Below, piece after piece: positions 18,866 to 58,411 of a stretch of DNA of 64,000 bases. Source of the DNA: Watersipora subatra (taxonomy: Eukaryota; Bryozoa; Gymnolaemata; Cheilostomatida; Watersiporidae); NCBI RefSeq assembly GCF_963576615.1, contig NC_088716.1:4588001-4652000 (forward strand), read 5' to 3'. Position numbers and translations under genes: made by a program. Within the stretch, counting starts at the first letter, position 1, and the number at the start of each line of letters is the position of its first letter. The notes under the pieces are model-generated. The model did no database searches, was not told where the DNA came from, and worked only from the letters and a program-made list of their open reading frames with translations.

Positions 18866-18866
18866 T

Positions 18867-18958: not shown

Positions 18959-19032
<74 letters not shown>

Positions 19033-19044
19033 TGTAGTATAGTA

Positions 19045-19104
<60 letters not shown>

Positions 19105-33919: not shown

Positions 33920-34135
33920 CTCTTATCTCTACTTCTGCTAGTGCCAGACCCTCCTCATGAGTGTTCAGTATAGCAACATGCTGTCCTTCTGTTGGTAGAT
34001 CAAAGTTGTGAGTTGCAACATCAGAATAAGGAGGATCTTGGTAAGAAACTCTTATCCAATCATCTGATGATAGAGAAGGATCTGATGGTTCAGCTCTGGC
34101 AGAGGTTAGTATACTCACTTTCCTCAGCCTCTCAT
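33920..34135 (-). CDS. F5/8C-FN3 surface protein, exon 3: second half of F5/8C domain 1
   Basis: A 216-bp exon with acceptor ATTACAG and donor GTAATT, phase 1 at both ends. It encodes DERLRKVSILTSARAE, then DDWIRVSYQDPPYSD and closes with GLALAEVEIRG, the last strand of a fucolectin/F5-8C domain. No first half lies upstream on this strand within 15 kb. The missing half, ending in phase 1 after LYNRPEPF, is on the plus strand at 40738-40947. Joining the two gives one normal domain, so this exon marks where the inversion cut the gene. Confidence 0.87.
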
Positions 34136-36680: not shown

Positions 36681-36685
36681 ACCAA
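36681..36685 (+). other. Target site duplication of the BEL element, left
   Basis: ACCAA immediately precedes the 5' LTR. The same ACCAA, read on the minus strand, follows the 3' LTR at 44431-44435. BEL/Pao elements typically create duplications of 4-6 bp. Confidence 0.8.
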
Positions 36686-37278
36686 TGTAAGGATTATGTG
36701 TACTTCCTATGCAGTTTATAAAATGTTAGATACAATTTTTGCTTGTTTCAGCCTTCAGGCTGCCTTGGTAGTATATCAGTTACTGATGGCTTGATTTGAA
36801 TTCGGTGGGCTGCCGTGTGATTGGTTTGCATTTGTGGGGCTATTTCTGTCAGCCAATGACGCGATATCTGTGTTGATGGCATGCGGTTTTTGTAACTTGC
36901 TTCTAGCCGGTCACGCAGTCAGCCAGTTTAGTAAAATCGATCCAGTCTTAATGTTGTAAGCAAATCACTGGAGCTTGTTTTATAATCAAATGAAACTACA
37001 GGAGGCAAAAGGTATTTACCACTGTTCCCTATTATAATATGTATCAATTTGTATCATTTCTTTTCTGTCAAATAATGTTACATTGTGTTACACTTGCTAA
37101 TTAAGACTACTTCGTTCTATTTTTTAGTTGTACTGTTTTATTTTAGACTTCACGGTTGTTGTGTGGTGTCATTAAAGTAAAGATAAATAAAGTTGACACT
37201 TACATCGAACCAGTAAAGTTCGTAACCTCAAAAGGAATCTAATAGTCAAAAGTCTAGCAATGCTCCCACATTGCTAAA
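36686..37278 (+). repeat. BEL/Pao 5' LTR
   Basis: 593 bp from TGTAAGGATTATG to CATTGCTAAA. Comparison with the reverse complement of 44436-45028 shows the same length and about six substitutions with no indel noticed. It contains an AATAAA signal at 37186-37191. No primer-binding site could be fixed with confidence; a TGGAGCAAAG occurs 24 bases downstream. Confidence 0.9.
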
Positions 37279-39410
37279 GTGAAGTCTTTCTCCGCTAAAG
37301 ATTGGAGCAAAGATTAAAGTTCGTTTAAGAGTTATGCAATCCGTTTGCGACAAAGTCATTCAACAGAACTGAAGTCTACAGTTAATCTACCAAGTAACCG
37401 AGAGCTAAAAGAATATCAGCCAACTAAGTTACAGAGACACAACCCCATTCGTTACATTCGCTAAGGAAATACCCAGAGACAATTAACTTTATTATTCCTT
37501 AACATTTTCGACTCCAAGGCTATTATCGGCTAAACAATTCCAAGTCAACGAGCAGAGGTCAACATCACAGCTAAGTAAATGCGTTGTGCCTTTGCTTGTG
37601 TCATCATATCGTATGGTCTGGTCAAACTGTATACGCGTGTATTCAATATTCACTGTTGTTCATTGCTAACTAGAAAGGAATACTGCTCTAGTTAATTCTG
37701 GATAAATTATATTAAAAGGTTTACAGTTTTAGCATACCTTTCCTCCATAGCCTTTTTGTAAAAATAACTTTTGCTTTCACACCGTTTTTCTTTTCACCTG
37801 TTTGTAAACTAAACAGGCTGACTGTGTGTATAATTCAAGGCAGTGGAAATTCCTAATACTTTGTTTTCACTGGTATCGCGCGTCATTTTGGCTGACAGAC
37901 TGGTCCCCTGCACATCCAGTCTCACTGCTGTTCATGTTTGGGTGTTAGCTTGCAGTTTTGGTTTGCTTTCACCAGGTAGCTAGGCTTTGAAGCTCACTCG
38001 AGCATAGACATATAGCCTTAGTGGTTTCATATTTTACTGTATGCCTTATTTTTGACTGTCAATAATGTCAGAGAGCGAATCAGAGCCTGCTGAAAGCCAA
38101 TCAGCAAATGCTGATTTAGCAAATGACAGTACACTTTCTGTGTCTAATGCTGTACATAGCCCAGTTTCTGAGAGTGTCTCAAACATTGAGGTTAGTGTTA
38201 GGAAATCAACTAGAACCAAAACGCTAAGCAGTGTGGCCAAACAAAACCAGTGCTTGGAATTAAATACTGCTCTGTACAAGCAGATTAACAAGGCCCAAAT
38301 GTATTTTGACACTGTATATAACAATTTTGAGCAGCTCACAGGGCTTGATGTTGCAAATAACACACTCGAAACAGTTGATGCAGCTGTACAATATGTCAAT
38401 GAGCTGTATGATGAGTTATATGAACTTTCTGATAATAAAGTTGATTTGTCCATCTCAAAACAATTTGATGAATATATGGAAGAAGTTTCTGTACTGAAAG
38501 ACCAAGTAAATGCCAGAATAAAGCTATTAATGGATACCAAGGCTGAAGAAATAGCAGAAGAGCAAGAGATCACAAGATTGGAAGAATCAATAGCGAAAAT
38601 GAAGGAAGAACTGGAAGAACAGAATAGAATCTATGAAAGCAGGAAAGCTGACAGAGCAGCAATACAACAGAGGGCCTTCAGCCACCCCAAAGAGTTGTCC
38701 ACTTCAGTAGGCTCTCAACGGAGAAGTTCTGTTCTGGATCCCCAAAGGGATAACTCTGAGGAAGTTTTCTCACATAAGCAACACTCACAGTTACATAGTT
38801 TAGCTTTCGAACAACAAAGGAATAACTTCGATGAAGTTTTGTCGCATCAACCACCTCAACTTACACCTATACAAGGAGCTACAGTCACCAATCAAGATGG
38901 AAGGATGCCCATTCAAAGACAAGATGATGGCATGAGTGCTGTAAGGGAGTTGACACAAAGTCTGGTAACTGCTATGAAGGCAACCAAGCGTTCAACACCA
39001 GCACCAACAATCTATGACGGCAATCCTAGCAACTTCCAAGATTGGGAACAGGATTTCGAGGCCTACATTGAGTCAGAGGGACTTGTTGGAAAAGAACCAC
39101 TTCGATATTTGAAAAAAATTGTGACGGGTAAAGCAAAAGATGCTATCAGTGGGCATTTGATGACCAACACAGAAGCTGCATACAAAGCAGCAAGATGTGA
39201 CCTAAAAGAGAGGTTTGGAAGTAAGCATACTGTTAACAGAGCACTGCGAAAAAAGCTTGATGAATGGTCGCGAGTAGGTGCAAAAGACGCGAAAGCGCTA
39301 CGGGATTACGCTGATTTCCTGTCACACTTGAGGGCAGCAATGTCAGATGTTCCGGAGCTACAGTCCCTTGATCTTAGTCAAGAAAATGAAAAAATGGCTG
39401 CAAAACTTCC
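36686..39410 (+). mobile_element. BEL/Pao retrotransposon, left half (5' LTR and gag)
   Basis: Plus-strand part of a BEL/Pao LTR retrotransposon: 593-bp 5' LTR, leader of about 0.8 kb, and a gag frame that loses homology at about 39410. The remaining 3' half (pol and LTR) lies inverted at 44436-49111. LTR length, near identity and shared ACCAA target duplication indicate that both halves come from one insertion. The part expected between DUF1759 and the protease (end of gag, zinc knuckles) is not found in either half, so the break was probably accompanied by a loss. Confidence 0.88.
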
Positions 39411-39552
39411 AGTCAAGCAATCAAAATGGAGCGTATTCCCCATTCAGTCATCAGCATTGATGTTTGAGCCCCACAATGATTATCATGAGTCTCAAAGTTC
39501 AAACTGTGCATCAGCACCTTTAAATGTTCCTAAGCCTCACTTTTGTCCATAA
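38065..39552 (+). pseudogene. gag: BEL/Pao Gag polyprotein, 3' truncated and fused to flanking DNA
   Basis: The frame starts ATG TCA GAG at 38065. Residues about 1-50 are acidic and Ser-rich. Residues about 85-205 are helical, with a Glu/Lys-rich coiled coil (EEQEITRLEESIAKMKEELE) near 170-190. From about residue 305, TPAPTIYDGNPSNFQDWEQD starts the DUF1759-type Gag domain usual in BEL/Pao elements, continuing through RYLKKIVTGKAKDAI. After NEKMAAKLP (about residue 447) the similarity stops. The last 47 residues are read-through into host DNA that is itself repeated 300 bp downstream. The zinc knuckles normally following DUF1759 are absent. As the left half of an inverted-split element it cannot produce Gag-Pol. 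Confidence 0.9.
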
Positions 39553-39810
39553 CTAACAAGTTGGCAGTTGTTTATAATCACTCAGTAAGCAATACATTAG
39601 CATGTGGATATTCAACCAATTGTTTAGTGGATACCTTTATGGTTTGGAAATAGTGAGTCAATGTTTTTCACGTAAATGTTGGTTTCAGTCACTAAAAACG
39701 AATATTAGTGTGCAGTCGAGCATTCAAAATAGAGTGTATTTGCATAGGATTATTAGGTAGTTGATATTCACAGTCATCGGCATTGATGTTAGAGCCTTAC
39801 AATGATTTTC
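39411..39810 (+). repeat. Partial tandem duplication upstream of the signal-peptide exons
   Basis: The segment starting CAGTCAAGCAATCAAAATGG (39410-39490) recurs with changes at about 39709-39810 (CAGTCGAGCATTCAAAAT, then CATCGGCATTGATGTT, CAATGAT). Because the first copy begins exactly where the Gag similarity stops, the left breakpoint can be placed at about 39405-39411. Confidence 0.7.
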
Positions 39811-39973
39811 ATGAACAACTAAATGGTCTTTTGTTTGTCTGAGAAACGCATGTGAGCTCTGGAATGTGGAGCTGATTGTGTAAGTTATATTTAGCAAAGG
39901 AGGAAGTTAGTTTACTACCTTATTCCTTGCTGTATCCTGCTAGGAGCTACAAGTAAGACTGAACATTTCTGAT

Positions 39974-40031
39974 ATGTTGTTCTTGCTTGAGCTCACTTTA
40001 CTTGTGGTGAGGCTCACCCTTCCTGCAGAAG
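39974..40031 (+). CDS. F5/8C-FN3 surface protein, exon 1: signal peptide
   Basis: A plus-strand coding exon from ATG at 39974 to a donor GTAAG at 40032, ending phase 1. It encodes MLFLLELTLLVVRLTLPAE, a hydrophobic leader suitable as a secretion signal. It splices in frame to exon 2 at 40738, giving ...PAE-G-EVNLALNKPA, a typical start of a secreted fucolectin/F5-8C domain. It lies inside the inverted segment, which explains why it is on the opposite strand from the rest of the gene. A tandem copy follows at 40153-40210. Confidence 0.72.
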
Positions 40032-40152
40032 GTAAGTCTGGAATGTAAAGTTTGTTATGTAAGTTATATTTAGTTAAGGAGGTAGTTAGTTCACTACTTT
40101 ATTCCTAGTTAAAACATTCTATGAACTACAAGTAAGACTCGGTAGCTCTGAT

Positions 40153-40210
40153 GTGTTGTACTTGTTAGAGCTCACTTTACTGCTGGCTGTACATGTTCTT
40201 CCTGCAGAAG
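40153..40210 (+). pseudogene. Tandem duplicate of the signal-peptide exon, start codon changed
   Basis: A 58-bp copy of exon 1 inside a duplication of about 180 bp (39850-40031 versus 40035-40210). It keeps the frame (LYLLELTLLLAVHVLPAE), the same phase and the GTAAG donor. The codon aligned with the ATG of copy 1 is GTG, and no in-frame ATG was seen just upstream. It is either a relic or an alternative exon used from an upstream start. Confidence 0.65.
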
Positions 40211-40737
40211 GTAAGTTTGTTACATCTCATGACTCCTATTTATAGTGTAGTAGTTGTATGAATGCTGAGAGACTGTTTGAATGGTTCGCTTATCGTTTTA
40301 TTATAGGTTTTATGGTAACATTATTATGCTTATTTAGAAGCAATTAAGGCTTTGAACAAAACAATGTCTTACACGTCTAATGCTAAAGTATTGTGAAGGT
40401 AATATATTTTAATAAAATTCAACTTCCGGGGCAAATTCCATCTTGTTTTTATATAATTCGTAAAACTGTCTATGCAAGTAGCTAATACTTTCATGTTAAA
40501 CCAAAATGGTACCAGTATGTTTTAATTAAATCTTATTTGCCTGCATAATTGTAGCAAACAGTGCGTAATGAGACCATATTTTGTTTAAACTGAAGTAAAC
40601 TAACTCTTGACCAATAAGGGATGGTGTCTTGTTTGATAAGTGCACATAATTGACACAACCTAAATTGTCTCGCAATGCTATAAACATCAACTAAACTTAA
40701 TAGTCATTTTATTATTTCCCATCTATTTGCATTTCAG

Positions 40738-40947
40738 GAGAAGTAAATCTAGCCCTTAATAAACCAGCCAGGCAGAGTGGTGAATATAAACCTAATGAGG
40801 TTTACCTAGCCAGCAATGCAGTCAATGGTAACACATCAGACTTCTCTCATACAGCAGCTAATCAACAAGTAAACTGGTGGACAGTGAACTTGGGTGCTAA
40901 GTACAGCATTGGCAGCATAACACTGTATAACAGACCTGAACCTTTTG
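40738..40947 (+). CDS. F5/8C-FN3 surface protein, exon 2: first half of F5/8C domain 1
   Basis: A 210-bp plus-strand exon with acceptor ATTTCAG and donor GTAAGT, phase 1 at both ends. It encodes EVNLALNKPARQSG, then NAVNGNTSDFSHTAA and VNWWTVNLGAKYSIGSITLY, the N-terminal half of a fucolectin/F5-8C domain. No second half follows on this strand before the BEL pol half. The compatible second half is on the minus strand at 33920-34135; the junction codon (G plus AT) gives Asp. Length and phase are identical to exon 4, the equivalent exon of domain 2. Confidence 0.87.
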
Positions 40948-41929
40948 GTAAGTCTAATGAGTATTTAGTGGCTCTTCTTCAATAGTAACGGAATAATGTA
41001 AAATGAAGCAAATAAGTTTTTTTGGTAAAAAGTTGTTTTTGTGGGTTTTTATCACACATACGTACTAAAACTAAAATGAATATGTGTTTGTTTATCAAAA
41101 TAACTTTGAATGATAAAATGTTAGCTGATAGAATAGCACCATGAAAATAGTTGCTGAACGAAAGCTGTTGTAATTTTGCACACTTTTTTTTACTTTTGCA
41201 ACCTTTTGAAATTGTGTAACTTTTTCAAATGATCCAATAAAAACTGACGCAAGTTCTAGGGTTTTCATGGAAAGCAAACAGCCATGCTTTCTAATATCGA
41301 TATTGTGCTTTAAACGCAAGAAAATATTCTTTTTAAGCAAGTGCTTCTCAAAAAGCCCAACAGCAAGTAAAAGATTAAGCGGTTTTTAACTTTTTATAAA
41401 GAATTTGTTAATTTTGTAGAGGAGCACACTTGCAGTCCCGTTCGCCCTACGAGATCATCTTGTCTAATAATTATTTGCGCAATTATTGTTAGATGATAAA
41501 ATGAGGGTGCATAGTACAGTGGTAAATGCATTAATTTGTCCTAATGACCCTAACACTGATTTAGCCAGATGCATGGATAGAGAGACATGGCTCTTATTGT
41601 AAAGATTGATAGGCCTAACTACATGCAATTGGTAAAACTGGTAACACAATCTTCATGACATCAATATTTGCCGGGCAGCAGTTATGCAAAAATATAATGT
41701 CACAAAAATATAAGCTACAATGAAGCTTGTAAAATTAGCCTTTGTACTCTTGCTGTCCTGCTAAACTTGCAAATCAAATTTTAAAAAACAACTACCAATA
41801 CTAGTACACTGGCAGTCTAGTAAACTGTGAGATATTAGCCGATGTAATAAATAAATGTCTATAAATTTTCCTGTTTTCAGCAAGTTCGTTACAAAATGAA
41901 ATATTGGAGTTTGATTTTTTCATGAGAGA

Positions 41930-42970
41930 ACCTTGTTTCCTAACATTTTTTATTTTGCGTTGATTGAACATACTGATGTCCACAACTCTAGTTCAAGTGA
42001 AGTGTATCTGAATGACCGGCGTTGTTCGGGTAGTAAAAAAGTCTTTGGACAGGAAATTTATTTTAATTTAACATATGCAACATATACCATTCAAATAAAT
42101 TATGGAGAAAATAGATTAGGAGAAAAATAAAACAATTTTGAATGTTGTCGAACTTTTTTAAACAGCTGTAACTTTTAAATTTCATTTCATGAAGAAGTTT
42201 TTTGTTGTAATGAATTAGGAGAAAAGAAAAACTGTAAAGGTTTTTAAATTTAGATGTGAAATCATTAGCAATTAATGGCTAAATATAGTCAGTTTTGGTA
42301 TGATTACAATGAAAAATTATTTGGTATACTATTATATGATTTTAGTTCTTTTCAGTGTTGGGATCATAAGGCGAAAATATTGTGTAGACGTATAGAGTGG
42401 TATAGAAACCCGTAGTAATCATCTAATGCAAACACCGCCTAGGAAAAATTATCAAAATCATCATCATTAAAACAGTAACAAAACAACATTTCAGCCTTCA
42501 TAACTATAGTTACCTGCAATAACTTTAGTGCATTTTGTGTCTATGATCTGCTAAAAAGTGTAAAATTATAATGTACTATCTGCAGAGTTCTTAACTTCAA
42601 CACAGATGTGTAAAATAAACGCTGAAACTAACTTAAATTGATTTAGCTTATTAAACACGTACTTCAAGAAAGTTTTAGTTTGCATTTTAGTAAACTTGAC
42701 ACTGTTAAATAAAATTTTATCATTTACCTGTATGCGAATTTTTTTATCATAACAGATAATGCTGAACTAATATAGCAAAAAAATAGCATATTGCCATTTT
42801 TGTTCTTTCGTCATAATCAGTACAAAAATCGCCCAATTTTAATTTTGAGATGAATTTTTTTTGCAATTGTTGTAGTGTTTCTGGCAATTGTTGATATTTA
42901 TCAAAAGGCGGAAAACAATTACCCCTAGTATGGCAAGGTCGAAAAAGCGTTGCGTTCCATAAAGTCAGGC
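41930..42970. repeat. Dispersed repeat, left arm of an inverted pair
   Basis: Aligns directly to 2040-3540, and as a diverged inverted repeat to about 43540-44150. Examples are a GCCAAACTTTAA-type block near 43575 read on the minus strand, and the GTAAAGG-TTT block at 42235 versus 44070. It surrounds the SINE-like centre at 42977-43337. Confidence 0.45.
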
Positions 42971-42976
42971 AAAAAA

Positions 42977-44232
42977 TCTATATATGTTAACCTCAGTATC
43001 CGTCCGTCTGTCCAGCTAAAGCTATTTACATATTTCCATTGCACCCACGATTACCCGGCACAATGGATTTCAGCAGATTAAAATCATAATCTATGTGTGC
43101 AATGGATCAATTAAAGCGTTGTTCAACGTATGCGAATAAAAAAGGGTATATGACATATGATAAGAGCTTTAGAATTCTAAAGACAGTGAAGCTCAGCGGT
43201 TAAATGTGTGCTTAGAAACTTGGGGTTGTAATCTTCTCGAGTCCAAATCCAGCAAGAAGTGAACTTTCCACTTCAGGATTTTAATAGCTATATAACTGGA
43301 CAGGTGGACAGACACTGAGATTTATATCTACATGTATATATATTTTTCAAAATTGGTTGTATGTGTGTTCGTGTATTTTTGTATTCGTCATTTGGATTGT
43401 CCAGTTTTAACTATTATTTTAGCAGTGCGCCCATGCGTTACAATGTCCAGGTTTAAAAATATTTTGGGACACAAGTATTTGCAACAATATGTTTCTTTGT
43501 CTTCATTTTGTTTGGGCTAATTTGTTCAGCTCCACGATATCGACAATAATTTACTTACAAACTTAAAGTTTGGCGTTTTTTGTAATGATTATATGCGTTA
43601 TTAAGAGATATCAGTTGCTAGCTACTGCGGGCTCAGCATTATCCATTATCCGGTATATCCAGTATCCGTTATAATAAAAGCTTTTAACAAATGGATAAAT
43701 GATAAAATTTTGGTTGGAAGTTCACTAAAATACATACTAAAACTTTCTTCAAGCATGTGTTTAGTGAACTAAATTCATTTAAGTTAGATTCAGCGTTTGT
43801 GTTACACGTCTGTTTCAAAAGTAAGAACCATCCATGTAATACATTGTACATGTATAAGGCTATATTACCTTGCAGATCATAAACACAAAATACACCAAAG
43901 TCATTTTAGGTACTTATAGTTACTAAAGTTAACATAGTATTTTGGTACAATTTTATATTTTACAATTTTGTATTTATTTTTAATTTAGTTGTCCTGCACA
44001 GAACCTTTTCCTCATGATATGAAGTTTGAAAGTTTGAGGTGTTTGACAAAGTTTGAAACCCTTTACAGTTCTATTTATTTTCTCTCTTAATTTATTTCAA
44101 CTACACAAAAACTTTGCTCATGATATGTAGTTTGAAACTTAGGGTAGCAAATGTTGTTATATGTTTAATACAAATCAGTTTTCTGTCCAAAGACTCTTTT
44201 ATTAACTGGGCAATGCCTGGTAGCACAGCTAG
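42977..44232 (+). mobile_element. Helitron-like element candidate
   Basis: Starts TCTATATATGTTAACC after an A and has the CCGTCTGTCCAGCTAAAGC block. It ends with the palindromic TGGGCAATGCCTGG, then TAGCACAG, CTAG and T. Within it, 43260-43337 is an inverted copy of its own first part. The composite may be a Helitron-like element with a nested inverted SINE. No ORF. Confidence 0.45.
43182..43337 (+). repeat. tRNA-like SINE candidate
   Basis: GAAGCTCAGCGGTTAAATG resembles a tRNA A-box region and GAGTCCAAATCC a B box about 45 bases later. It is followed by a body ending TGGACAGACACTGAGATTTA. This is the expected order for a tRNA-derived SINE; the inverse of the same body starts the Helitron-like elements of this window. 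Confidence 0.45.
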
Positions 44233-44430
44233 TATATAGATAAATTTGATAGTTGAACCATCAAGCGTTATCCTAAAATAATAACAGCTCATTTTTAAAA
44301 AGTATTTCAGAGAATTCCTACAACTTTTAAATGGTGCCTTTGCTTTTTTTTATTATTGTATTATGTAGTTACCCAGAATGAACGCTACGTCTTTGCATAT
44401 TAAATTGTTGTTAAATTAAATTTTTTGAAG

Positions 44431-44435
44431 TTGGT
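44431..44435 (-). other. Target site duplication of the BEL element, right (inverted)
   Basis: Plus strand TTGGT, that is ACCAA in the orientation of the element, immediately after the end of the 3' LTR. It matches 36681-36685 and supports a single insertion later split by an inversion. Confidence 0.8.
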
Positions 44436-45028
44436 TTTAGCAATGTGGGAGCATTGCTAGACTTTTGACTATTAGATTTCTTTTGAGGTTACTAACTTTA
44501 CTGGTTCAATGTAAGTGTCAACTTTATTTATCTTTACTTTAATGACACCACACGACAACCGTGAAGTCTAAAATAAAACAGTACAACTAAAAAATAGAAC
44601 GAAGTAGTCTTAATTAGCAAGTGTAACACAATGTAACATTATTTGACAGAAAAGAAATGATACAAATTGATACATATTATAATAGGGAACAGTGGTAAAT
44701 ACCTTTTGCCTCCTGTAGTTTCATTTGATTATAAAACAAGCTCCAGTGATTTGCTTACAACATTAAGACTGGATCGATTTTACTAAACTGGCTGACTGCG
44801 TGACCGGCTAGAAGCAAGTTACAAAAACCGCATGCCATCAACACAGATATCGCGTATTTGGCTGACAGAAATAGCCCCACAAATGCAAACCAATCACACG
44901 GCAGCCCACCGAATTCAAATCAAGCCATCAGTAACTGATATACTACCAAGGCAGCCTGAAGGCTGAAACAAGCAAAAATTGTATCTAACATTTTATAAAC
45001 TGCATAGGAAGTACACATAATCCTTACA
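44436..45028 (-). repeat. BEL/Pao 3' LTR (inverted)
   Basis: 593 bp on the minus strand, the same length as the 5' LTR and differing from it at about six positions by eye (about 99% identity). The purine tract GGTGGGAG (45029-45036 on the minus strand) directly precedes it, as expected for second-strand priming of an LTR retroelement. Confidence 0.92.
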
Positions 45029-45231
45029 CTCCCACCAAATTTACACTATAAATTTCAAAAGTTACAAGGTACGCTCAGGCGTTTACCTACTCTATATGAC
45101 AGGACAGGAACCAAGTTGTGCATACATTGATAATTAGAAGCACAAAAGCTAAAATAATATACACAGCATACATGAGTATGAAAACAAACTAAACACAGAC
45201 TGCGTAAGCTGCATTATACATAACCAAATAT

Positions 45232-48200
45232 TTACAAAAGTTTAACCAGTTTCTGAACTGGTCTCTGAAGCACAGTAGATTTCTCTATAGGTTTGCCTTT
45301 GCTATCCAACATTTTTGTGGCTACCTTTACCGTTGCCTTTCTTACGAGACCGTCTTGTCCATGAAAAACTTCTTCGATAACTGCCAGTCTCCAACTGTTC
45401 CTTGGCTGATCTGATTCCACAATCATAACTATGTCTCCTACTTTCAAATTACCTTGTGATGTTGTCCATTTCTGTCGCTTCGTTATGTTGTCCAAATATT
45501 CCACCTTCCAGCAGTTCCAGAAATCTTCAGCAATGGCCTGAACCTTTTTCCATCGCCATTTGCAATACCTTTCCTCACTGTCAAAGTCTCCAGGAGGGGA
45601 GGTGTTGACTCAACTTTTCCTGTCAGTAATGCATTTGGAGTCAGTGGCACCTCTTCATGATTGTTGAGGTGCATGGTAGAGAGAGGTCGGTGGTTTACAA
45701 TAGATGCAACTTCGAAAAGGATCGTTCTGAGTGATGCTGTGTCTATTTGACCTTGATATTTCGACATGGCTTGATTTAACACGAAACGCACAGTTCTGAT
45801 CTGGCGCTCCCACACTCCACCTTGGTGACTAGCTGCAGGAGTTGTGGTGATGAACTCTATACGTCTGTTGATGAGATACCTTTTTACTTCCTCATTAGTC
45901 ATTGTTGTGAACTGTCTGTTCATCTCATTTATTCCTCCAATAAAATTCGTGCCGTGATCGCAGTATATTCTCTTGACAGAGCCTCTGATAGCTAGGAAAC
46001 ATCTAAGGGCATTTATGAATGCGTCTGTGGTGAGATCATCAACCACTTCAATGTGTATGGCTCGACTATAGAAGCAAGTGAACAGCAAGCCATAACGCTT
46101 GAGCAGTGTACGCCGTTCTTTTACCGTGAAAGTCCCAAAACAGTCGATTCCAGTCATAGTGAAAGGCGGTGTTTGTTGTAGTCTATCTTCTGGTAATTCG
46201 CCCATCTGCTGCTGCACGAAGCTTCCTCTCAACTTTTTGCACACCACACAATTTTTACAATGTCTTTGGTTATCCTTGTGCCTGAGATCACCCAGTACCC
46301 ACTTTGTCTCACCATGTTGAGGGTGTAACCCATGCCTAGGTGAGCTTTGTTATGGACGTCTCTAATGAGTAACTTGGCTAGATGACAATTCTTAGGAACA
46401 ATTATAGGATGCTTTTCTTCAAAGCTCAGAGTTGTTGATTTCGTGGCCCTCCCACCAATCCGAAGTATGCCTTCCTTGTCAATGTAAGGATTGAGACCGA
46501 TAATGCTACTAGCGGCGGGTAGTGTTTGTCCTTTATGTAGTGCATCCAATTCTGTCCAGAAGTGCTTTCTTTGTGTAATCTTTATGACCAATTGCTTTGC
46601 ATCTTCCAGCTGTGTCACTGTGGGGGTAGAAATCGCACTTCATGATTTCTTCCGTGCAATCTGTTGCAGATATGCGAAAGACGTTATTAGTCTTTTTAGG
46701 CTGCTGAACTTGGGGAGTTGGTCATATTATGCCGTACTGTACTGAGTTTTGGTCAACTTGACCTCTTTTATTTTCTTTACCTCAGGGTCATCGTCTGCGA
46801 TACACTTTGCTAATTTGCGGTCATTTTGCAGTCTACTCTGTATGTTACGCTGCATGAGAAATGTGGGTCCAGTAAACCACATAGAATTTGGTAGCTTACT
46901 GCAATCTAGGCCCCTCGAGGCGATGTCAGCGGGATTTTCAGAGCTGCTAACGTGGTGCCATTGTTCAGCTTTAGTTGTCATCTTTATTTCACGCACTCTA
47001 TTCGCCACATAAACATGAAACTTCTTCTTCTCGTTAGATAGGTATGCTAGAACAATCTCTGAGTCCGTCCAGAAATGCTCTTGGTTAACTTTGATATTGA
47101 GCTATTTTTTCAGAATAGAGTGCAGCTGAGTGGCCACAACTGCACCTTGAAGCTCCAAGTGTGGCACTGTAATGATGCCTTTACTAGGAACGACTCTAGA
47201 TTTTGCCAAAAGCAAACATGTGTGCACATTACCATTTATATCTATCAGTCTCATATAAGAACAAGCTCCTATCCCACTAAGGCTTGCATCACAAAAGTGG
47301 TGAAGCTCTGCTTGTGCAGTGGGTCCAAAGTCAGCCGGTTTGATGCATCGTGGTATAAGCACATCATCTAGGTTGCCTAGCTCCTTCACCCATTCTTTCC
47401 ATGGCTGAATCAGACCAGGTGGAATCCCTTTGTTCCAGTCGTCATCTACTTTGTTGATTTTCTGCAAGATATTCTTTCCCTTTAGAGAGAATGGAGCCAA
47501 AAAACCTAACGGGTCATATAGCTGGCTTACAGTTGACAGCACTCCTCTCCGTGTCATAGGCTTTGGTTGAAACTCCTTGTCTGTAAATTTCAATACATCT
47601 TCTTTCATCGACCATTCTAGGCCTAGTGTTCTTTGAGGGAGGAAGCATCCATTGTACAGATCAACATCTTTGACTGATCTCTCTGATTCAGGTATTCCTT
47701 TCAGTACTTGTGCATTATTTGAAACAAATTTGTGCAGTCTCAAGTTTCCCTTTTGACAAAGTTTTCGCGAACTTTCAATGAGCTCAAGCGCTTCTTCCAC
47801 TGTAGGTACGCTTGTAATGCCGTCGTCTACGTAAAAGTTTTTTTGAATAAATTGAGAAGCCGTAGGGTAGGTTTTTTTATGACTTTCTGCTAGTGTTTGA
47901 AGGCCATAGGTTGCCACTGCTGGCGATGAAGTAGCCCCAAACAAGTGGACTGTCATACGATACTGTTTTATCTCTCCGCTGTTTCCAAACCAAAGGAATC
48001 GCAAGTAGTTTCTATCATCTGCGTTGACTTGGAAGTTATAGAACATCCTCTCAACGTCGCATGCTATTGCCACAGGCTCTTCTCTAAATCTTAACAATAT
48101 TCCCAGCATGTTGTTAAAAAGATCTGGGCCCTGCAGTAGGTGATCGTTCAGTGATGTGCCGTCGAACTTTGCGCTGCAGTCGAAGACCACTCTTATCTTG

Positions 48201-49111
48201 TTTTTCTTCGGATGCACAACGGCGAAATGGGGGATGTACCACACTTCACCTGTACGGATTTTTTCTCCTGATGAAAGAACCTCTTCAGCATGACCCTTTT
48301 CTAGCAAATCAGCCATGAAAGTTGTGTATTCCTTGCGGAATGTTTCATTTGTACCAAACTTCTTCTTCAAACCCATCAGCCTTTTTTCGGCCTGCACTTT
48401 GTTGTTGGGCATGATCGGTCGTTGTCTAAATGGCAGTGGCATCTCATATGATCCATTTTCTTTGATGAGAGCCTCTTCATGCATTATATTCATGAATTTT
48501 ATGTCTTCTTGTGAGATCAATGTGATTTCATCATGATCCTTAAAGCACACTGATGTGGCGTTGACTTTAGTCTTTTGATTCAGTTTGCCTTCAACTGTTG
48601 TTAGCTGTTCTTTCCCACCTAAAACTGTCCATCCCAGAATGGTTCGTTGCGCAAATGGTTGTCCCTTGTCTCCTGGTATACATTCCAGAGGCTCAAAAGC
48701 TTCTACACAGCCTGCGCCTATCAACATACCCATTGGTATATCTAAAGGAGGTGGCAGTTTTTGGGTGTGTTCTTTGAGATGGGGTAGATGTTGAACATTG
48801 ACACTGTTGGGTATTTGTTGACCACTATACAAAAGCTCGCTCCATTCATACGCTTCTAGGGTTGTCGACTCAATCTGCTGGTAACCCCGAATTCGCAAAT
48901 TGCTGTACCTTTTCACCCAATCTGTAGTTTCACCCGTAAGGGTGCTAATAGTTACTGTTTCGGTAGAATAAGCTGGCTTAACAATGTGAGCGATTTCTTT
49001 ACTGAGATAGGACGAATCGGATTGTGTGTCCAGCATAGCGTAAATGAGGGTTTCTTCAGAAGGATTTTGTAAGGTTGATACGTACACAGGTATAACCATG
49101 CTTAGCATCAT
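45232..49111 (-). pseudogene. pol: BEL/Pao Pol polyprotein, interrupted
   Basis: Minus-strand pol covering: aspartic protease (YAMLDTQSD, about residues 23-31 of the long N-terminal frame 49111-47102); reverse transcriptase with YVDD near residue 425; RNase H (HFCDAS near residue 603); integrase with HHCC-type residues (VHNKAHLG, then CVVCKK), D-D-E residues in TGIDCFG, YCDHGTNFIGG and GGVWERQ; and a C-terminal DUF5641-type tail ending at 45232. Lesions seen: in-frame stops at about 47102, 46727 and 46641, and frameshifts at about 46257 (A run) and 45565. Upstream of 49111 the frame continues only about 25 codons before a stop, and Gag is absent. It is the inverted right half of the element at 36686. 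Confidence 0.93.
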
Positions 49112-49260
49112 CTTTCCAGCCCTAGTTGTCTTTGTAGTTAGTATCCTTGTTTCTTCCTTTGGAAGCGCTCAGAGGCTAAATGGTTGTGGTAGTTCAGAAG
49201 GATTGCTTGTGTCATATAATCTATCTATAGTCTTTTATTTATCACATATAAACATCCTAT
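49112..49260. other. Right inversion breakpoint zone
   Basis: The pol frame extends upstream of 49111 through LTTKTTRAGK to an in-frame TGA near 49182. Somewhere here BEL sequence gives way to host DNA. The precise junction cannot be set without a reference copy of the element. Confidence 0.6.
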
Positions 49261-49435
49261 TTTAAGCCATTTTACTTGCGTGAAACTACACGATGAACCA
49301 ACTATTTTTTCTTGCTGGTATATTTTACAGAAACTTCATTTCAACTTACCAACTATGACTAGTGTAATCAAACCATCGAGTTAGGGTTGATGATTCTCCA
49401 GGTCTATACACTTATCTAGATTGGTACTTGTTCTC

Positions 49436-49693
49436 ATGCTCTCTCTCTCCCCCCTTCTCTCTCTCTCCCCCCTTCTCTCCCTCTCTCTCCCCTTCTCTCT
49501 CTCCCCTTCTCTCTCTCCCCTTCTCTCTCTCCCCTTCTCTCTCTCCCCTTCTCTCTCTCCCCTTCTCTCTCTCCCCTTCTCTCTCTCCCCTTCTCCCCCC
49601 CCCCTTCTCTCTCTCCCCTTCTCTCCCCCCCCCCCTTCTCTCTCTCTCCCCCCCCCCCTTCTCTCTCTCCCTCTCTCTCCCTCCCTCTCTCAC
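49436..49693. repeat. Pyrimidine tract with a CCCCTTCTCTCTCT minisatellite
   Basis: About 255 bp of almost pure C/T on the plus strand. The unit CCCCTTCTCTCTCT is repeated many times, with C runs up to about 12. Lies about 250-300 bp from the inversion breakpoint. Reading frames through it are artefacts. Confidence 0.95.
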
Positions 49694-49699
49694 TAAGGG

Positions 49700-52600
49700 A
49701 GAGATTTCTGCCCTATTCCTTTTATTGCCTGACAGTTCCGATTATGGATTAACAACTGAATAAATACCTCCTAGCTAATTTATTTTCTCTACATGGGATT
49801 CTATCGATGATTTTTGTTTTAGATGGAGAGTTTTCTGTTGCCTGTTTGTATCACCAAGGATGTTTGTCTGCATATCTTTGGAAGGGATGCTAGGATACTT
49901 CCTTCAAGGTATGTTTCTGCTGGTCTTTAATTTAAAGTTACTCCCTACTGGCTGGTTACGTCTTCAATGTTTCAGTCTCGTCAGAAAATTCGATATATCA
50001 CTCACTTACACGATATGGCTGTTTCATGGGATGTAGATGTGTATCTTGACTCAGTGTACCCATATGTTGCTTCTCACTCTCCATCTGCCTGAACAAATAT
50101 AAGCCCTCACTCATTTCAGCTTGTCAGCTTTCCAGTCTTACAACTTCTATTGTTCTCTTGTTACTCCTTCAGCTGTTTAACCTGCCTGAGCTCTTTGCTA
50201 AATGTTTCTTTGTCTACTTGCGTTTCTCGCTAATTTTTGTCATGTCCAAATATGTATTTAGTTTTTGAGCTATTTGCTGCATGCACTTATATTTCGCTAG
50301 TATTTAGTTTCGTGAGTAGCATACCAAGTAAAATTTCGCTGCTACTAAATTTCGCAGCTCTGATGAGTGCGAAAATATTGTGGCGCTTGCTGCCATTTGT
50401 CCTTGACGAATATTTGTTAACTGACTTAAACCTTGGCACGTGTCCAAACATTTGCATGAAAAAAACTGACTGATTGTTTTCCAACTACAAAGGTATCTGC
50501 TAACAAATTAGCTGGAAGTCTGCGTGCTGAACTGTTGCTTACTGAGTGATTATAAACAACTGCCAAGTTGTTAGCTTTGAACAAGTGAGAATTAAGAAAA
50601 CTTAATGGTCCTGACACGCAGTCCGAATTTTGGTACCAAATACCTCTCTTAATATTTTCTTCACAATATTCTTTTTTAATCCATTTTAGATAGTAGAAGC
50701 CTTTCCTATTTTTATGCATTTATAATTGTTTAATAAGCATTTAATTTGCATGTTAGACTTCATAAAGCATTTTAAGCAATGTTACATGGCCTGCCTGAAC
50801 TAACCATACTAAACCAGCCACTGAGTGATTTGTGACACCGCTACAGTAATTAGTATGTAAACCAGAACTATATCGATGAGCTCAGTTTGTAACACATGCC
50901 ATCAAAAGAAAGGAAAATTCAACATACCATTTCAATTAAAAGTTGTGAGTTTCGATTTGGAAACTACCAACTGTCATGCTGCCAAAGTTTTTTGTGGTAA
51001 TAAAAGTCAACTCAATGAATGTAATCCAGAGCTGGAAACAACATATGAGAGTGACCACAACAATCGACTTTTTGAGGCCAGTATAAGGACAAGCTGAATA
51101 TTTCCTTGCATCTTATTGTTGAATAAATTATTTTTAGCCTTTTCACATTTCCACAATTAATTCAAATTGTACTAATAATTAATATTATGAAATCTTATGT
51201 AAACTTACTAGTTGCTAACATTACATTTACTAAGGTTACGCAAGTTTTTAATAAGAGCAAGTATGATTCCTGTGTTCCCTTTTTTCCTAACACTCTCCTT
51301 TGGTTTTGGGATAGCACTATCCTTATTATAATAAATACCAAAAATATTAGTTTGAGTTACTAGCTCTTGTTACTCAAATTTATTGGGTACAAGAACCTTG
51401 CGTCAACTAAGTTACCTGTCAGTGTTTATGAGCTATTTTAAATCTTGAGCAAATGTGTAGTGTAAGAGATAAGGGATGGTTTTCACCAATCAATTTTAAC
51501 TATGCCTCAAGTTTTCCAATATTTGAATTGTACCTTGGTCAAACAATCACAAAATAAAACAACACTTTCATTTAAAAGTTGGATGTGGAAATGTTGTAAA
51601 TGTTGATTCAAAATAATTTTTTTTTGAAATACTTTTAATTAGCCGGGCAATGCTGGGCCTTTATCTAGTAGAATATACTGTATAAAATCAGATGACCTAA
51701 AACTCTCAAGTATAAGCAAAAGTCTGCAACAGCATGACAGCATATTTCATAACTGTTCTATCACAAAGAAGCAATGTTGAAATTGTCAACAGATATATTA
51801 TATCTGCATGTATAGGTATAAAATATAGAGACAGTGGTGAAATAACTTAGGCTATATTACACTTAGGTAAGTAAAGAAGTCCTACAGTTGATATACTTGT
51901 TATGATTATTGTAGAAGTCAGCTGATTAGATATGAATACAGTAATCTGTACCACTTCACAAAGTTACTTTCCATACTAACCTCTGGAGTGGAAAGTCCCA
52001 CAAAATAAAAACCAGTTTTTATTAAGTCCCAGCCAACATTGTAACACTTGAGAACAGCTTCCTAGTTGTTTGCAATCACGATGTAAGTTTGTACCAGTCG
52101 TCATACAACCGGCTTATTTGTATGGTGCAGTATATTCACAATAATTAAAACTGTAGGCCTGCAAGGATTCTAAGAACTGAATGGCAAAGCATGAATGGGT
52201 CAAATTTCAAAGAGACGTATTCAGTACTAGGCCTAAATATCTTTGAGCTAATTTGCACCAAGATGGCAAAATGATAGCAAGCACTAATTAGCGATTGCTT
52301 TCAGATAAACAAGGAAGGGTGGTCAAATGCCACCAAATATTTGAAAAGGTGGTTTTAGTCTATTTCATAAAAGTTATTCTACTTCCATCGTTAGCATCAA
52401 CTAGCTAATTGCTAGGTGACTTCCATATCAATAAACATCGCTCTTTGCAATGTACTACAAATACTGCTACAGTATATGTATCCGGCCACTGTGAACAGAA
52501 AACTACCTGTAGTCATCTAGAGCCAAAACCATACTGCAATGCATCATACTGTACCAAATCGTTAATTTTTCCATCTTATGTCAACAAAACGCCTTTTAAC

Positions 52601-54315
52601 AATAATATAGAATTATGACATAAAATGAAGAAACTCAAGTGATCGCCAATCACCTATAGTTGAAGGGTTTAAGTAGGAGAGCTCACTGTTTACAGTATAA
52701 TGGCTAATAAGCTAATTGTCTTTGTAATCCTACAAAAAAAATCTGTAAAAAGAGAATATGTGTGACTCAACCGTTAATCTTATATAAAACACAAAGTTAA
52801 AGAATGACAAACATACAGTTTCAGTACAAATCTGCTCCATGTAAGGTAACAGAGGTTCCCATGTTATGATCAGCGAGTGAAACTTGAACCATGCAGATTA
52901 CATCAGTAACTTACAGAGTGTTTTTGAATTGAGACTCATCTCAACATTTGTTTAAAAACATTTAAGCTGGTACGGCAAAAACACTGATAAAACTTGGCTT
53001 TATTTGTCATAAAATATTAAACATCCCAAAAGCCTCTTCTATTTACATTAAAAATATGACAGGATATCTGAGAAAAATCTTGAAGTATAGCAGCCTCTTT
53101 AAAATAAAATTATAACAATTATTTACTTATCAGTGTTTTGTGAGTTATTTGATAATTATAGAGATCTGTGTAGATCGTTTGACTTCCAGAGGTTCTCATG
53201 AGACATTATACTTGTTTGTAACGCAAATTGGCTGTATTTAGTTCTGTATGAAAACATAACAGAGCTACATGTTTGTTAAAGGTTCTATTTCTTATGCTTA
53301 GCAATACAAATAACTTATAAGTCTCTGCAGAGCAAACAGAAATAGCAATCATTTAAATTTAACTTGCATTGAAAGCAGAACAGGAACTACTAGAGATTGC
53401 CAACTTTATAAACAAGTTTGCTAGGAGGTTCTAGCAGCATCTGAAGATAGAGTGCTTCAGCTTTCAATTTTTGTAAAAATGAAAAGGCAACAAGTGATTA
53501 TAGTGCCATATAGATTTGCTTTATGCGATTCTGTCCAATTTAAAGAAGTTGTTTCATAAACAAGCTTTGTTACTGTATAAAGAGATAAAATAACACTTAC
53601 AATATAACTAATAATAGAGCCAATCTACAGCAAAGCTAACTTTGAAATTACATGAATAAAATGTGTGTCTTTTCACGGCAGCGGTCATTCAAACGATATA
53701 ACTTGACTTTATGACTGAATCTCATTTCATATAAAATAAATATTTTATTAGGAACAACTCTCTATTTCTTAAGAAAATAAACAAAATAATTAGCTCAATG
53801 AATCTAACAGTATAATATCACAACAATGACTGACTAGAACATAAGATAACAACAAAAATATATCACATGAAATATGCACAAGTACACCGAGGTGAGTGAA
53901 ATATCTCTGTCAGTGATTGAATTTTATACCAATGATAACATATTGTTCAGTATGGACATACACATAAAATGCTAAATCGAGAACAGACAGAATAATAGCC
54001 TTGGATAAGCATCAAACAATGTGAGCTGATTTGCTGTGGATGAGTATTGACACACCCTGCAGGTGTTCATAATGAATGTAAATGGTTGTTGATTGAATGA
54101 GGTGTCATACATCCTGGCAGTAATAAACACAAATTCATATAAAATATAGATTGTTCGTTAGAGATTACTTTCTGAAGATTAAATACACAAAAATATAGTT
54201 TAAATCCAAAAAGAATATTTTCGTATCAGTTAATATAATGATGGGGATTGCCGGACAAATATATAAATTACAGATATACCTATTTACTAGTAGCCAATGA
54301 GAGAGTCTGTTACTA
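49700..54315. other. Intergenic region, mostly unrecognised
   Basis: About 4.6 kb between the breakpoint and the 3' end of the kinesin gene. It holds a Helitron-like 3' end (to 51668). Short open frames, for example 50426-50719 minus and 50876-51097 plus, show no recognisable domain or splice partners. On the minus strand an AATAAA (53744-53749) could serve as the kinesin polyadenylation signal about 570 nt after its stop. Confidence 0.4.
51540..51668 (+). mobile_element. Helitron-like 3' terminus
   Basis: GGAAATGTTGTAAATGTTG is followed by the palindrome GCCGGGCAATGCTGGGC, TTTAT, CTAG and T. It aligns with the last about 120 bp of the copy ending at 12845. The 5' end was not located. Confidence 0.45.
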
Positions 54316-54473
54316 TCACGATTGTGTCCTATTTTTGTTACCCAATTGCGATTGAATTTGTCCAGCTAGCAGAGGGTTGAGTGCGTACAGCCAATCAAAT
54401 ACATCCTTCTCATCTAGTGATTGGATGATGTAGCCTTTATAAGGGGTGATTATGGAAAATGTATTCTGTACAC
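54316..54473 (-). CDS. KIF1A/B homologue: Kinesin-3 (KIF1/unc-104 type), last coding exon: C-terminal part of the PH domain
   Basis: A 158-bp coding exon with acceptor TTGCAG, phase 1 in, ending at a TGA (54316-54318). It encodes [20 protein letters not shown], then [20 protein letters not shown] and a short basic tail. This is the end of the pleckstrin-homology domain of KIF1-type motors (known form NTFAVCT...[14 protein letters not shown]). The PH domain binds phosphoinositides on synaptic-vesicle precursors and other cargo. The protein ends only about ten residues after the domain, as in UNC-104/KIF1A. Confidence 0.9.
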
Positions 54474-55431
54474 CTGCAATATGTATAACAGCAAACTAGG
54501 ACAAGCGTGAGAGCAGTCTATAGTTAGTTGCAGTGTTGGTAAAAACTATGATGATTGAATCATCGTTAATAACTCTAGCTACAGTAGACACCCCTATAAT
54601 ATAGATAATCCGGTCCCAAGACATTACAGAGACTTTACTGCATGTGGGGGGAGGTAAAATACATGTGAATAGCTTAATTTAATTCCAAATCTTCTAAAAC
54701 TTTTAAAACTCGCCACTCTGGCTCCTCAAAATAAGAAAGTCTAAACTTATTTTCTAAATTCATTCCCGACCATGACAAGTATACTCGCATATTGATCATC
54801 GGAAGGCTACCAATGCAGGTTAGCTCACCTTTGAATTTTCTTATATTCCAATTATGACAATTTTTTGTTGTAAAAGAAAATTTTTGATTGGTATGAAAAA
54901 ATTTGTAAAATTACACATTTTTACATTTAAATCACTGTCAATTTGAATCAATGTTTTCCTTTTCTTCTCCAAAACAGTTTCTACCCTATAAAAACTTTGT
55001 ATATGTCTAAAATGAAGTGAGAAAGAATAAATAAATATATAAAATATACCAGCACAGATATCCTTATGCAACACTATCTTTCCCATGTGTGGTAAGAAAA
55101 AAGTACAAGTTTGAGAGCTTGCACCGGCTTCCCGTTGTCCATTACATTAATACGGTTAATTTTATTGAGCATTCTTTGGACAACGCTGTCACTACCATAA
55201 AATTCCTAAAGGTCATTGGTGATGTTGTCAATTAATAAAATAATAATAAAATTAAGTTACTACATAATTGCTCAAAAAATCGCAAAAATGTGCATACGAC
55301 AATCGACCATAGATTTCGCATAAATGAGCATATGGCAATGAAAAGGTTAAACTATCAACAATGCATAACAAAAATCTGAACAGCGTGAATAAATATAAAT
55401 TTAAAAATAGAGACAAATGAGTGAATCTTAC

Positions 55432-55549
55432 CAAGTAACTGCTGTTGATCATCACTGCACTCAATCCTAGCAGTGCTCAGATTGATAACAGCTCTCTCTA
55501 CACAGTCTTTACTTCCGGAGTAGAGAAACAGGTATGGTCGTCGAATCAC
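55432..55549 (-). CDS. KIF1A/B homologue: Kinesin-3 (KIF1 type), PH-domain exon
   Basis: A 118-bp exon with acceptor TTGCAG and donor GTAAGA, phase 0 in and phase 1 out. It encodes VIRRPYLFLYSGSKDCVERA and VINLSTARIECSDDQQQLL. The RRPY-x-F-x-Y, VERG/A-INL-T-A and SEDQQ-type signature of KIF1 PH domains is clear. The family Asp-Pro (KDPVER) is Asp-Cys here, and the usual Tyr after Glu (VEYSEDQQ) is Cys (IECSDDQQ). Confidence 0.93.
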
Positions 55550-55824
55550 CTGCAATTGATAATTATTACTTATAATATCATGGTTAAGTGGTGAGTAAGT
55601 TGAAGTATAAACAAAAATATATAAAATACAAATGAAAACTGATGATATACTCGTGACTGTTGAACACGGTTGAACATCTGATTGTGAACATGAATACATG
55701 AGGCTGACTCTCCGATGATAGGGGTTTGCATACTACATTAATGCATATAAGGCAGATAATGGATTGAAACATATCTACAGAAGACACTCCATAACTAGTA
55801 TATTAGTCAATACAAAAAACATAC

Positions 55825-56038
55825 CACATGACATTTAGACCACTTGTTCCTGTGGTGGGGCTGGTCAAATACATTGATGAAGCCTTTTTTAGAGATGATT
55901 GGGTTGGGAAATATCTCTTCTGTGTCTATGATGAGCTGATGACTTGCTTCCCCAACTGAACTACTATCCGATGACACAGTATGCATGCTACCACATGACA
56001 TAGATGCCTTTTTACGTTCATCAGCATTCGACATAGAT
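55825..56038 (-). CDS. KIF1A/B homologue: Kinesin-3 (KIF1 type), exon entering the PH domain
   Basis: A 214-bp exon with acceptor GTTTTAG and donor GTATGT, phase 2 in and phase 0 out. A Ser-rich linker (SSDSSSVGEASHQ) and an acidic stretch lead into IISKKGFINVFDQPHHRNKW and SKCHV, the first strands of the PH domain. The join to the next exon gives CHV-VIRRPY, matching the family pattern of aromatic/hydrophobic-VV-RRPY. Confidence 0.9.
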
Positions 56039-56418
56039 CTAAAACATTAGTATATCAACTGATAAGCTACCTTTAATTCTAATGGCAAAATAGAAAACTA
56101 TCTCTAACTTATTGAAGAGTCAATACGTAGAAAGAGTCACACCCATAGTGACACCAACCAAAACTTCACTTGCTAGAAAATGTTTTGGACAATTATTAAC
56201 ACCCTGTTCAAGGAACACAATGGTTTACAGGTTTCAAGTTTTGTGCTTTCATGGCTTGTCATGTTAAGCATTGTCAAAATTTAGTCGAAGAGAGTAAATG
56301 TCTTACAAATTATTATCATCATTTTAAATGAACAAGTTTCCACTAGCAGTAACTACATAATCACTTCAACTAACAACTCCTCAAAAGGAAAAGCATTTCA
56401 AGTTAAAGGGATGTTTAA

Positions 56419-57293
56419 AAGTTGACTTGCAACAAAATTCACATTACAGTTATTTGGTATCCAAAGATTCACTATGTCTTACTCTGTTGTGTTGTAAGTA
56501 CCAAATATGTGGAAATGTGATTACAAGCTCTTAAAAGCTCAAAAACGAAAAGCCGCCATAGATTGGAATTTCTTTATTTCGATGACAAAACCACGAAATT
56601 TTGTTATTGTCTTGTCACGTATGTTCTCACGCGAATTGAAAGGCCAATACAAAAATCAAAATAAAACTTATCGTAGTACTAGTTTATGACAAACCCTTCG
56701 GGTTTTACCAAAGACCCCGTATCAAATATAGATGCTCGCTACTTTACAATTTTGTTTCGGCCTGGTCTAATTGGCAAGTCGTAATCTGATCGTGTGACCC
56801 AATACTTCGCAAATAATTTCTGCAGCACTTTTCAATTATCACAAGTGACCAACAGGCTCGGCATGATTATCAGATAATGATATGTACTCCTTCAAGCTAA
56901 GGCTAAAAAATTAAACGAATTTTTATGGTAAGTTATAACATATCGGTACTAAAAGTGACAGCATTACAATGATGATAAAACAGACGCGTAAGAACAATAG
57001 ACATAGTTTTATTGAATGCGTGAAGTATATTTGTAAAAATATTTCGACGAATAAGGTTGCATGAAAGTGTAAACAGAAACCCTCTCTCACAACTAATCAC
57101 ATTTGAGCCGTTTTGGAAAAAGGAATCCAAACTATGGCGGTCTCATGTGGCTGCGATTAACTGTTCGTTTTTAGCTTTTAAGAGCTTGTAATCACCTTTC
57201 CACATATTTTTCACCTACAAAACAACAGAGTAAGACATGGTGAATATTTTCATATCAAATAACGGTAATGTGAATTTTGTTGCAAGTCAACCT
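56419..57293. mobile_element. Long-TIR non-autonomous DNA transposon (MITE-like), copy 2
   Basis: About 875 bp, TTAA on both sides, in an intron of the kinesin gene. Begins AAGTTGACTTGCAAC and ends with GTTGCAAGTCAACCT. The arms pair over at least about 120 bp, and the whole element aligns end-to-end and in the same orientation with 25272-26169 (shared GACCCCG, GATGCTCGCTACTTTACA, TTTCTGCAGCA blocks). No transposase motif. Confidence 0.8.
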
Positions 57294-58173
57294 TTAAAGA
57301 TAATAAATTTAGTTGCATGCTGGGTTGAATGCTATTATCAGCACTGGTTACAACAACAGTGATTGGGATATGATGTCATTTAGAAACCTTATCAAACAGT
57401 ACCGCTTAATAAAAAGCGTCAACTAAATAATAAATGATTTAGTTGAATAATATAATTAATCAGTTTCTATAATACTGTAAGTATTGGCAGTTAATTAAAT
57501 TAAATCTTTTCTAGAGGAAACAAGAACCTTCTTATACAACCTTCTCTAGCAAAGCCAGCTTGTTAGGTTACAAACTAAACAGGTATGGTTTGATCAAGGT
57601 GATATGAATCACTATTAAGCAGTGATTGAAACTATAATGACTGTGATTCGCTAATCAAAGTGATTATATAAACCATAAGTTAACACATATACACAGATCC
57701 TGAATGCTACAACATGTAATAGTTATTGATAACTAAACTGTACCAACCTTGCAGTGCCAATACCAGAAAGACTAAAACTATAATAGCAAATTTAGCAACG
57801 GTACCTAGCGCGGAAGTATTGATTGACACAACAAGTATTGAAGTACAACAAAGTAAAAAAATACAAAAAAAACAATTAAATGCTCAACTTAAAAAGTTGT
57901 ATAGACAGAATAAACTAACAGAACTACAATAGGAACAATACTACACGATGATAAAAATTGTGATAATAAAATATTAGTTATCTATTCAATCAATACAATG
58001 ACAGAACATAGACATGAGATAAACTGACCAAATATAATACAGCTATTTATGCTATGAATTATTATTGTTATCATGTTGAGAATGCCTACACATTCATTGA
58101 AAACAGAACTTTTTATGGAAGAAAGTAAACAAATATTAGGGTACATGATTGTGGCACTTTATGACCGACTCAC

Positions 58174-58305
58174 TTGGAAAGCCCTGATACGACAGAGCTG
58201 CTCGGTGTGAGTTTATCTGAGTCTGAGCTAAAGCTCTCACTAGAGTCTGACTTCCTCATACACCAGCTGGATGAAGCAACACCGGAACTCATCAAAGCAA
58301 TCACC
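58174..58305 (-). CDS. KIF1A/B homologue: Kinesin-3 (KIF1 type), Ser-rich linker exon
   Basis: A 132-bp exon with acceptor TTTCAG and donor GTGAGT, phase 0 in and phase 2 out. Its reading frame joins in phase to both neighbours. It encodes VIALMSSGVASSSWCMRKSD and a Ser/Asp-rich run. This corresponds to the variable linker before the PH domain in KIF1 proteins, where sequence is poorly conserved. Support comes from splice sites and phase rather than sequence. Confidence 0.75.
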
Positions 58306-58411
58306 TGAAAGTAAGACCACAACTTATCAATGGTACCATTTGGTTGCTTTTAGCAAAAAATTCCAAGATAGACTTGGCATGTCAATCTAATCTAAATGTC
58401 CAATAGTTTAA

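Follow-up and report, generated by a model that had tools for sequence, protein, structure and literature searches.

Five of the 13 human inversions resolved in the excerpt of PMC7702065 have been read as products of MMBIR; the insertions at their junctions measure 8 to 59 bp, and other cases described there carry copy-number gains of up to 350 kb. Microhomology of at least 1 bp is reported, in the excerpt of PMC8421209, at 138 of 155 and 135 of 148 junctions in two donors. For Drosophila, the quoted part of PMC3355041 describes inversions whose ends bear inverted duplications derived from staggered breaks. The origins of inversions are mostly blurred by later change; at the bryozoan locus described here, paralogs still reveal the parent order.

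We propose, with a probability of roughly 0.88, that a BEL/Pao element inserted into an F5/8C gene of Watersipora subatra, that an inversion followed, and that the break was repaired with template switching (MMBIR/FoSTeS-like). The window, by which we mean the whole 64,000-nucleotide stretch that was analysed (C9:4588001-4652000), contains no N and is 34% G+C. The genome searched was the 784-Mb assembly of 239 contigs, among which C2, C3, C5, C6, C7 and C9 measure 64-77 Mb. Elsewhere in the window lie mariner-like transposase pieces, identified by eye and spread over several frames (19256-20374, minus strand; near an inverted-repeat cluster at 18862-19140), and two copies of a ~0.9-kb repeat (25267-26177 and 56414-57301; 81.6% identical) with partly self-complementary ends.

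A divided element and a divided gene

The element now lies in two parts of opposite orientation:

36681..36685, plus strand: left copy of the target site duplication ACCAA, read next to the LTR
36686..37278, plus strand: 5' LTR of the BEL/Pao element, from the LTR alignment
37279..39412, plus strand: element leader and part of gag; homology to intact copies ends at 39412; DUF1759 match
44431..44435, minus strand: right copy of the target site duplication (ACCAA in element orientation)
44436..45028, minus strand: 3' LTR, inverted, from the LTR alignment
45029..49170, minus strand: inverted pol part of the element, homologous to intact copies as far as 49170; Peptidase_A17

The first-pass annotation had given these LTR positions and strands, with about six differences, and had placed ACCAA before the left LTR and, in element orientation, after the right one. 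Both readings hold: the LTRs are 593 bp long, in inverted arrangement and 98.99% identical (6 substitutions), and the duplication was read at 36681-36685 and, in element orientation, at 44435-44431. Within pol, a profile search recognised Peptidase_A17 (the Pao peptidase; E 2.9e-37). Searched in pieces, pol also gave RVT_1 at 21.5 bits and Integrase_H2C2 at 20.7 bits, both under their curated cut-offs (29.6 and 25.5), and no profile match in two other pieces. The open frame that enters from gag runs on to 39552, inside host DNA. The element has LTRs, gag, a Pao peptidase and 5-bp target duplications in common with BEL/Pao LTR retrotransposons, the secondary break being the sole difference found.

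Searching the genome with the LTR returned at least 19 matches. Two are those of our locus; twelve form six pairs, each on one strand and with its starts spaced by about 7.4 kb; for the other five no partner was listed. Target duplications of 5 bp are readable in five of these six intact pairs (one of them by eye, its LTR start being variant) and unreadable in the sixth, where the search word is absent at the 3' LTR end. The six pairs differ at 3, 2, 1, 14, 2 and 11 sites, and the pair at our locus is thus of middle age within the family by difference counts. At five of the six sites that differ here, the odd base is absent from all 17 other LTRs, the pattern that post-insertion changes should leave; at the remaining site (column 522), the left LTR's base is also present in three other LTRs.

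The element breaks were placed by comparing 1,201-bp pieces that span the gag/pol junction in each of the six paired copies. In all six, gag-side homology stops at 39412 and pol-side homology at 49170, with a constant 507 bp between them, and the element has lost these 507 bp at the break. The reversed gag and pol parts had been recognised beforehand, with a gag stop at ~39410 and a pol start at ~49111; the reversal stands, the exact ends are corrected to 39412 and 49170, and the loss of sequence that had been suspected at this junction is borne out. The missing 507 bp were sought in the 84 kb at hand and were not found relocated there, no match being better than E 0.035. The best of these matches (24 bp, 87.5%, at 50257-50280) lies 4 bp from the switch between the two templated pieces A and B listed below, and is probably due to chance.

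Three exons of the host gene are similarly distributed over both strands:

33920..34135, minus strand: exon 3, which encodes the second F5/8C half and stayed in place; profile match of the joined exons
39974..40031, plus strand: exon 1 with start codon and hydrophobic leader (putative signal peptide), inverted
40738..40947, plus strand: inverted exon 2, which encodes the first F5/8C half; profile match of the joined exons

That these exons form one split F5/8C domain had been proposed from their strands and from splicing in phase 1. The join is confirmed: the phases match, and joined exons 1-3 score 49.7 bits against PF22633 (cut-off 27.8) and 44.8 bits against PF00754 (cut-off 28.2). The best PDB relative of the joined domain is 3cqo, FBP32, a fucolectin-type lectin. 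Other frames on the minus strand encode a second F5/8C-like half, which scores 29.3 bits against a cut-off of 27.8, and FN3-like pieces at 21.9 and 14 bits, both below the Pfam cut-off of 25, while frame 27573-27941 gave no profile match. Exon 1 and its leader lie in a tandem duplicate (39858-40040 and 40037-40219, 77% identical), the second copy of which, by eye, has GTG instead of the start ATG.

The parent order in a receptor-like array

By its exon matches, the host gene belongs to a large tandem array of F5/8C receptor-like genes. Exon 2 has at least 150 matches on C9, C7 and C37 (150 of 274 candidates scored), and exon 3 at least 143 on these contigs, plus one on C4, this last included in the count (150 of 165 candidates scored). 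The family is very large at C9:3.9-8.3 Mb and on C7, and its orientation switches in blocks.

On C9, exon 2 has 70 matches; for 62 of them, an exon 3 follows on the same strand less than 20 kb downstream, some of them sharing one exon 3. Seven of the other eight have no exon 3 within 20 kb on either strand, and the exon 2 of our locus is the only one of the 70 with a nearby exon 3 on the opposite strand. In the interval from 3.9 to 5.3 Mb, exon 2 has 25 matches, counting fragments; 24 of them lie on the minus strand, and the single plus-strand match is that of the locus. Conversely, an exon 2 lies less than 20 kb upstream of 60 of the 67 exon-3 matches on C9; the seven without a same-strand one are that of the locus, three with an exon 2 on the wrong side at a distance of 2.36 kb, and three with no exon 2 nearby. 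The array therefore holds other incomplete or rearranged pairs of exons 2 and 3 besides the gene at our locus. Values of dN/dS for exons 2 and 3 against four paralogs (0.19 to 0.38) indicate that the family was under constraint, which does not prove that the gene at this locus worked just before the inversion.

Four paralog regions (p4714, p5489, p5983 and p7356) were compared with the following parts of the locus:

39413..44430, minus strand: inverted host segment with promoter region, exons 1 and 2 and part of intron 2; its exons now read on the plus strand
42018..44217, no strand assigned: foldback-like extra insert in intron 2, with no counterpart at this place in the four paralogs
50407..58721, minus strand: the gene's original upstream flank; p4714 is collinear with it to 58721, short gaps apart, and the other three paralogs less far

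In all four, the right-hand flank (reverse) is followed by 39.5-41.2 kb or more (forward) and then by the left flank (reverse), an order that corresponds to the locus with its inversion undone; the few additional matches are local repeats. The foldback-like insert has nested inverted arms, and related pieces occur at 2520-2745, at 32819-33044 and in p4714.

The left-flank match reaches the insertion point (36685) in p4714, p5489 and p7356, and ends at 36141 in p5983. With the element removed and its flanks joined at one ACCAA, the sequence aligns across the target site in the same three paralogs at 72.5-72.7% identity; the p5983 alignment does not reach the empty site. Joining the host break at one TCAAG gives a one-piece alignment in p4714 (65.6%) and p5983 (66.7%) and none in p5489 or p7356, the restored junction falling over an old, diverged tandem promoter duplication. 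A two-break inversion is thereby shown both by the un-inverted order in relatives and by both reciprocal junctions. The earlier proposal of a single insertion, then a single inversion that cut element and gene together, draws support from the intact copies, the paralog order (4/4), the empty site (3/4), the host junction (2/4) and the strands of neighbouring genes. Flipping ~39.41-49.1 kb, which had been expected to restore the parent, recovers its order but is insufficient alone, as a 1.23-kb templated insertion stands at the right junction.

Taken by itself, the present order might reflect a pair of truncated elements with separate origins and a pair of unrelated gene fragments. Such a reading can practically be dismissed in view of the common target duplication, the complementary element parts, the splice phase and the continuity of paralogs over the empty site. 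Homologous recombination between the copies of an inverted repeat (39493-39680 and 50447-50632), which lies close to both breaks, would be another route to the same inversion. However, the copies are 75.5% identical over 188 bp, and the junctions (39412/39413 and 49170/49171) fall outside them, which rules out this repeat as the cause and makes the route extremely improbable. The copies furthermore map to one place in p4714, p5489 and p5983, and would thus represent an old tandem promoter duplication that looks inverted through the event.

Junctions, templated patch and relative age

The two junctions of the inversion comprise these features:

39413..39417, plus strand: left-hand TCAAG of the 5-bp host-break duplication
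49168..50284, plus strand: templated piece A, a copy of C9:4655704-4654596 (minus strand, outside the window)
50284..50400, plus strand: templated piece B, a copy of C9:4656452-4656568 (plus strand)
50402..50406, plus strand: right-hand member of the host-break duplication, here CTTGA (TCAAG in reverse complement)

A host breakpoint at ~49.1 kb, as first suggested, has to be abandoned: the host end is at 50402-50406, and 49168-50400 is a templated copy of distant DNA and not old flank. Piece A matches its source, 2.6 kb past the right end of the window, with 0 mismatches and three poly-C gaps of 2, 2 and 4 bp, the poly-C tracts being 8 bp longer in the patch; piece B matches at 117 of 117 positions, and the patch in total has no substitution in ~1,222 aligned bases. 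In a genome search with the patch, these sources were the best match among the 40 of 439 candidates scored, that of A being reported as C9:4654596-4655701. The next listed relatives, in other array units, reached at most 90% where they covered A, which they did in parts, and 94% for B, over 99 bp. When 20-64 kb was compared with 58-84 kb (at least 85% identity over at least 60 bp), the matches of A and B were the only ones. In the restored order the source lies 17.5 kb from exon 2, as against 16.5, 17.6, 19.1 and 22.0 kb in four other units, which suggests that the distant copy is the original.

The BEL/Pao element inserted into intron 2 in minus orientation relative to the gene, with the ACCAA seen at its ends as the duplicated target. 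Later breaks, placed by comparison with intact copies and paralogs, opened the element between gag and pol, with the 507-bp loss, and the host DNA ~0.55 kb upstream of exon 1; TCAAG is now present on either side of the host break, as a staggered cut of 5 nt would leave it. The same comparison shows that the ~9.8-kb piece between the breaks was rejoined in reverse. On the left the join is direct; on the right, a polymerase may have extended the end on DNA 16-18 kb off, switched strand once, copied 117 bp more and met the host end. We infer microhomology-mediated template switching of the MMBIR/FoSTeS kind from the structure of the right junction, which carries a templated insertion from nearby DNA. 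The pol end and A share CTC (3 bp), A and B share one C, the gag/TCAAG join shares at most one G, and base 50401 is assigned to no piece; with microhomology as short as this (3, 1 and at most 1 bp), end joining with captured fragments is a possible alternative.

The chief rival of template switching retains the same inversion and explains the 1.23-kb patch by end-joining capture of free DNA fragments or of transcript cDNA. Human class 2 templated insertions have end-joining junctions (excerpt of PMC5110952), and the 5-bp host duplication fits a filled-in staggered break. On the other hand, both pieces derive from opposite strands of a single 2-kb neighbourhood, with a 1-bp join and an adjoining 3-bp microhomology, and independent capture of two neighbours would be less simple; no poly-A tract was seen at the patch joins. 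Capture is thus possible but unlikely, and template switching remains our preferred reading. The TCAAG duplication, at 5 bp, also has the target duplication size of the element family, as would fit self-integration or an integrase-cut host site. The ends that meet at TCAAG are nevertheless internal gag and the templated patch, not LTR ends, and self-integration would not be expected to enclose host exons, so that a rearrangement made by the element's machinery is very improbable.

An artefact of assembly or library, whether a chimeric molecule or a wrong contig path, would also fit a substitution-free patch, and amplification chimeras prefer inverted nearby joins. Yet both reciprocal junctions occur in one N-free stretch, together with the 5-bp host duplication, the 507-bp loss and the longer poly-C tracts, and a chimeric molecule should give one junction instead of a matched pair; an artefact is improbable. 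The left element-flank junction, allowing up to 2 mismatches, occurs once in the assembly, with no second haplotype copy there. On the evidence of this single assembly, the inversion may be fixed or polymorphic and is unlikely to be artefactual.

If LTRs and patch are assumed to share age and rate, the probability that all six changes fall in the LTRs (593 sites against 1,225 patch sites) is 0.0012, or 0.0037 if two adjacent LTR changes are counted as one, and patch divergence has a 95% upper limit of 0.24%. Zero changes in the patch against six in the LTRs indicate that the inversion is younger than the insertion (P about 0.001), a conclusion weakened if patch and source underwent gene conversion or if rates are unequal. 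The event thus carries two clocks, the element providing an age ceiling and the patch a second measure. That the inversion is recent had been deduced from LTR identity; recency stands, although the LTRs give only an upper age limit and the patch a tighter one.

Consequences and comparison with known systems

With exons 3 onward separated from promoter and leader, the allele is probably null, and one member of a large receptor family has probably been disabled. Exons 1 and 2 would now lie downstream of the LTR and gag in the same orientation. It is tempting to speculate that this is a segregating knock-out allele, and one instance of repeated template-switch rearrangement by which members of a possibly recognition-related F5/8C array are both reshuffled and inactivated, so that copy content varies between individuals; we consider this doubtful.

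A literature search on the receptor family, BEL/Pao target duplications and templated or TE-linked inversions yielded no paper on this locus or on an identical case, which is not proof of absence. The event is a known kind of mutation, unusually legible, and is a clean case from nature of an inversion repaired with DNA copied across 16-18 kb; the templated patch, the two clocks and the receptor array add to the case. Class 2 templated sequence insertion polymorphisms likewise place a patch of distant DNA at a repaired double-strand break, but the excerpt of PMC5110952 describes them as plain insertions, whereas the patch here lies in an inversion junction with its source 16-18 kb away. With the Drosophila inversions of PMC3355041, as excerpted, our locus has in common that break sequence is copied to both ends, although the duplications of inversion 2q measure ~1 kb and 4.3 kb and those here 5 bp. 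Human germline inversions with templated insertions, as presented in the excerpt of PMC7702065, resemble it in the inversion itself, the short microhomology and the copied insertion at one junction; in contrast to their insertions of 8-59 bp, the insertion at this locus is 1.23 kb long, consists of two strand-switched pieces and lies within a gene array.
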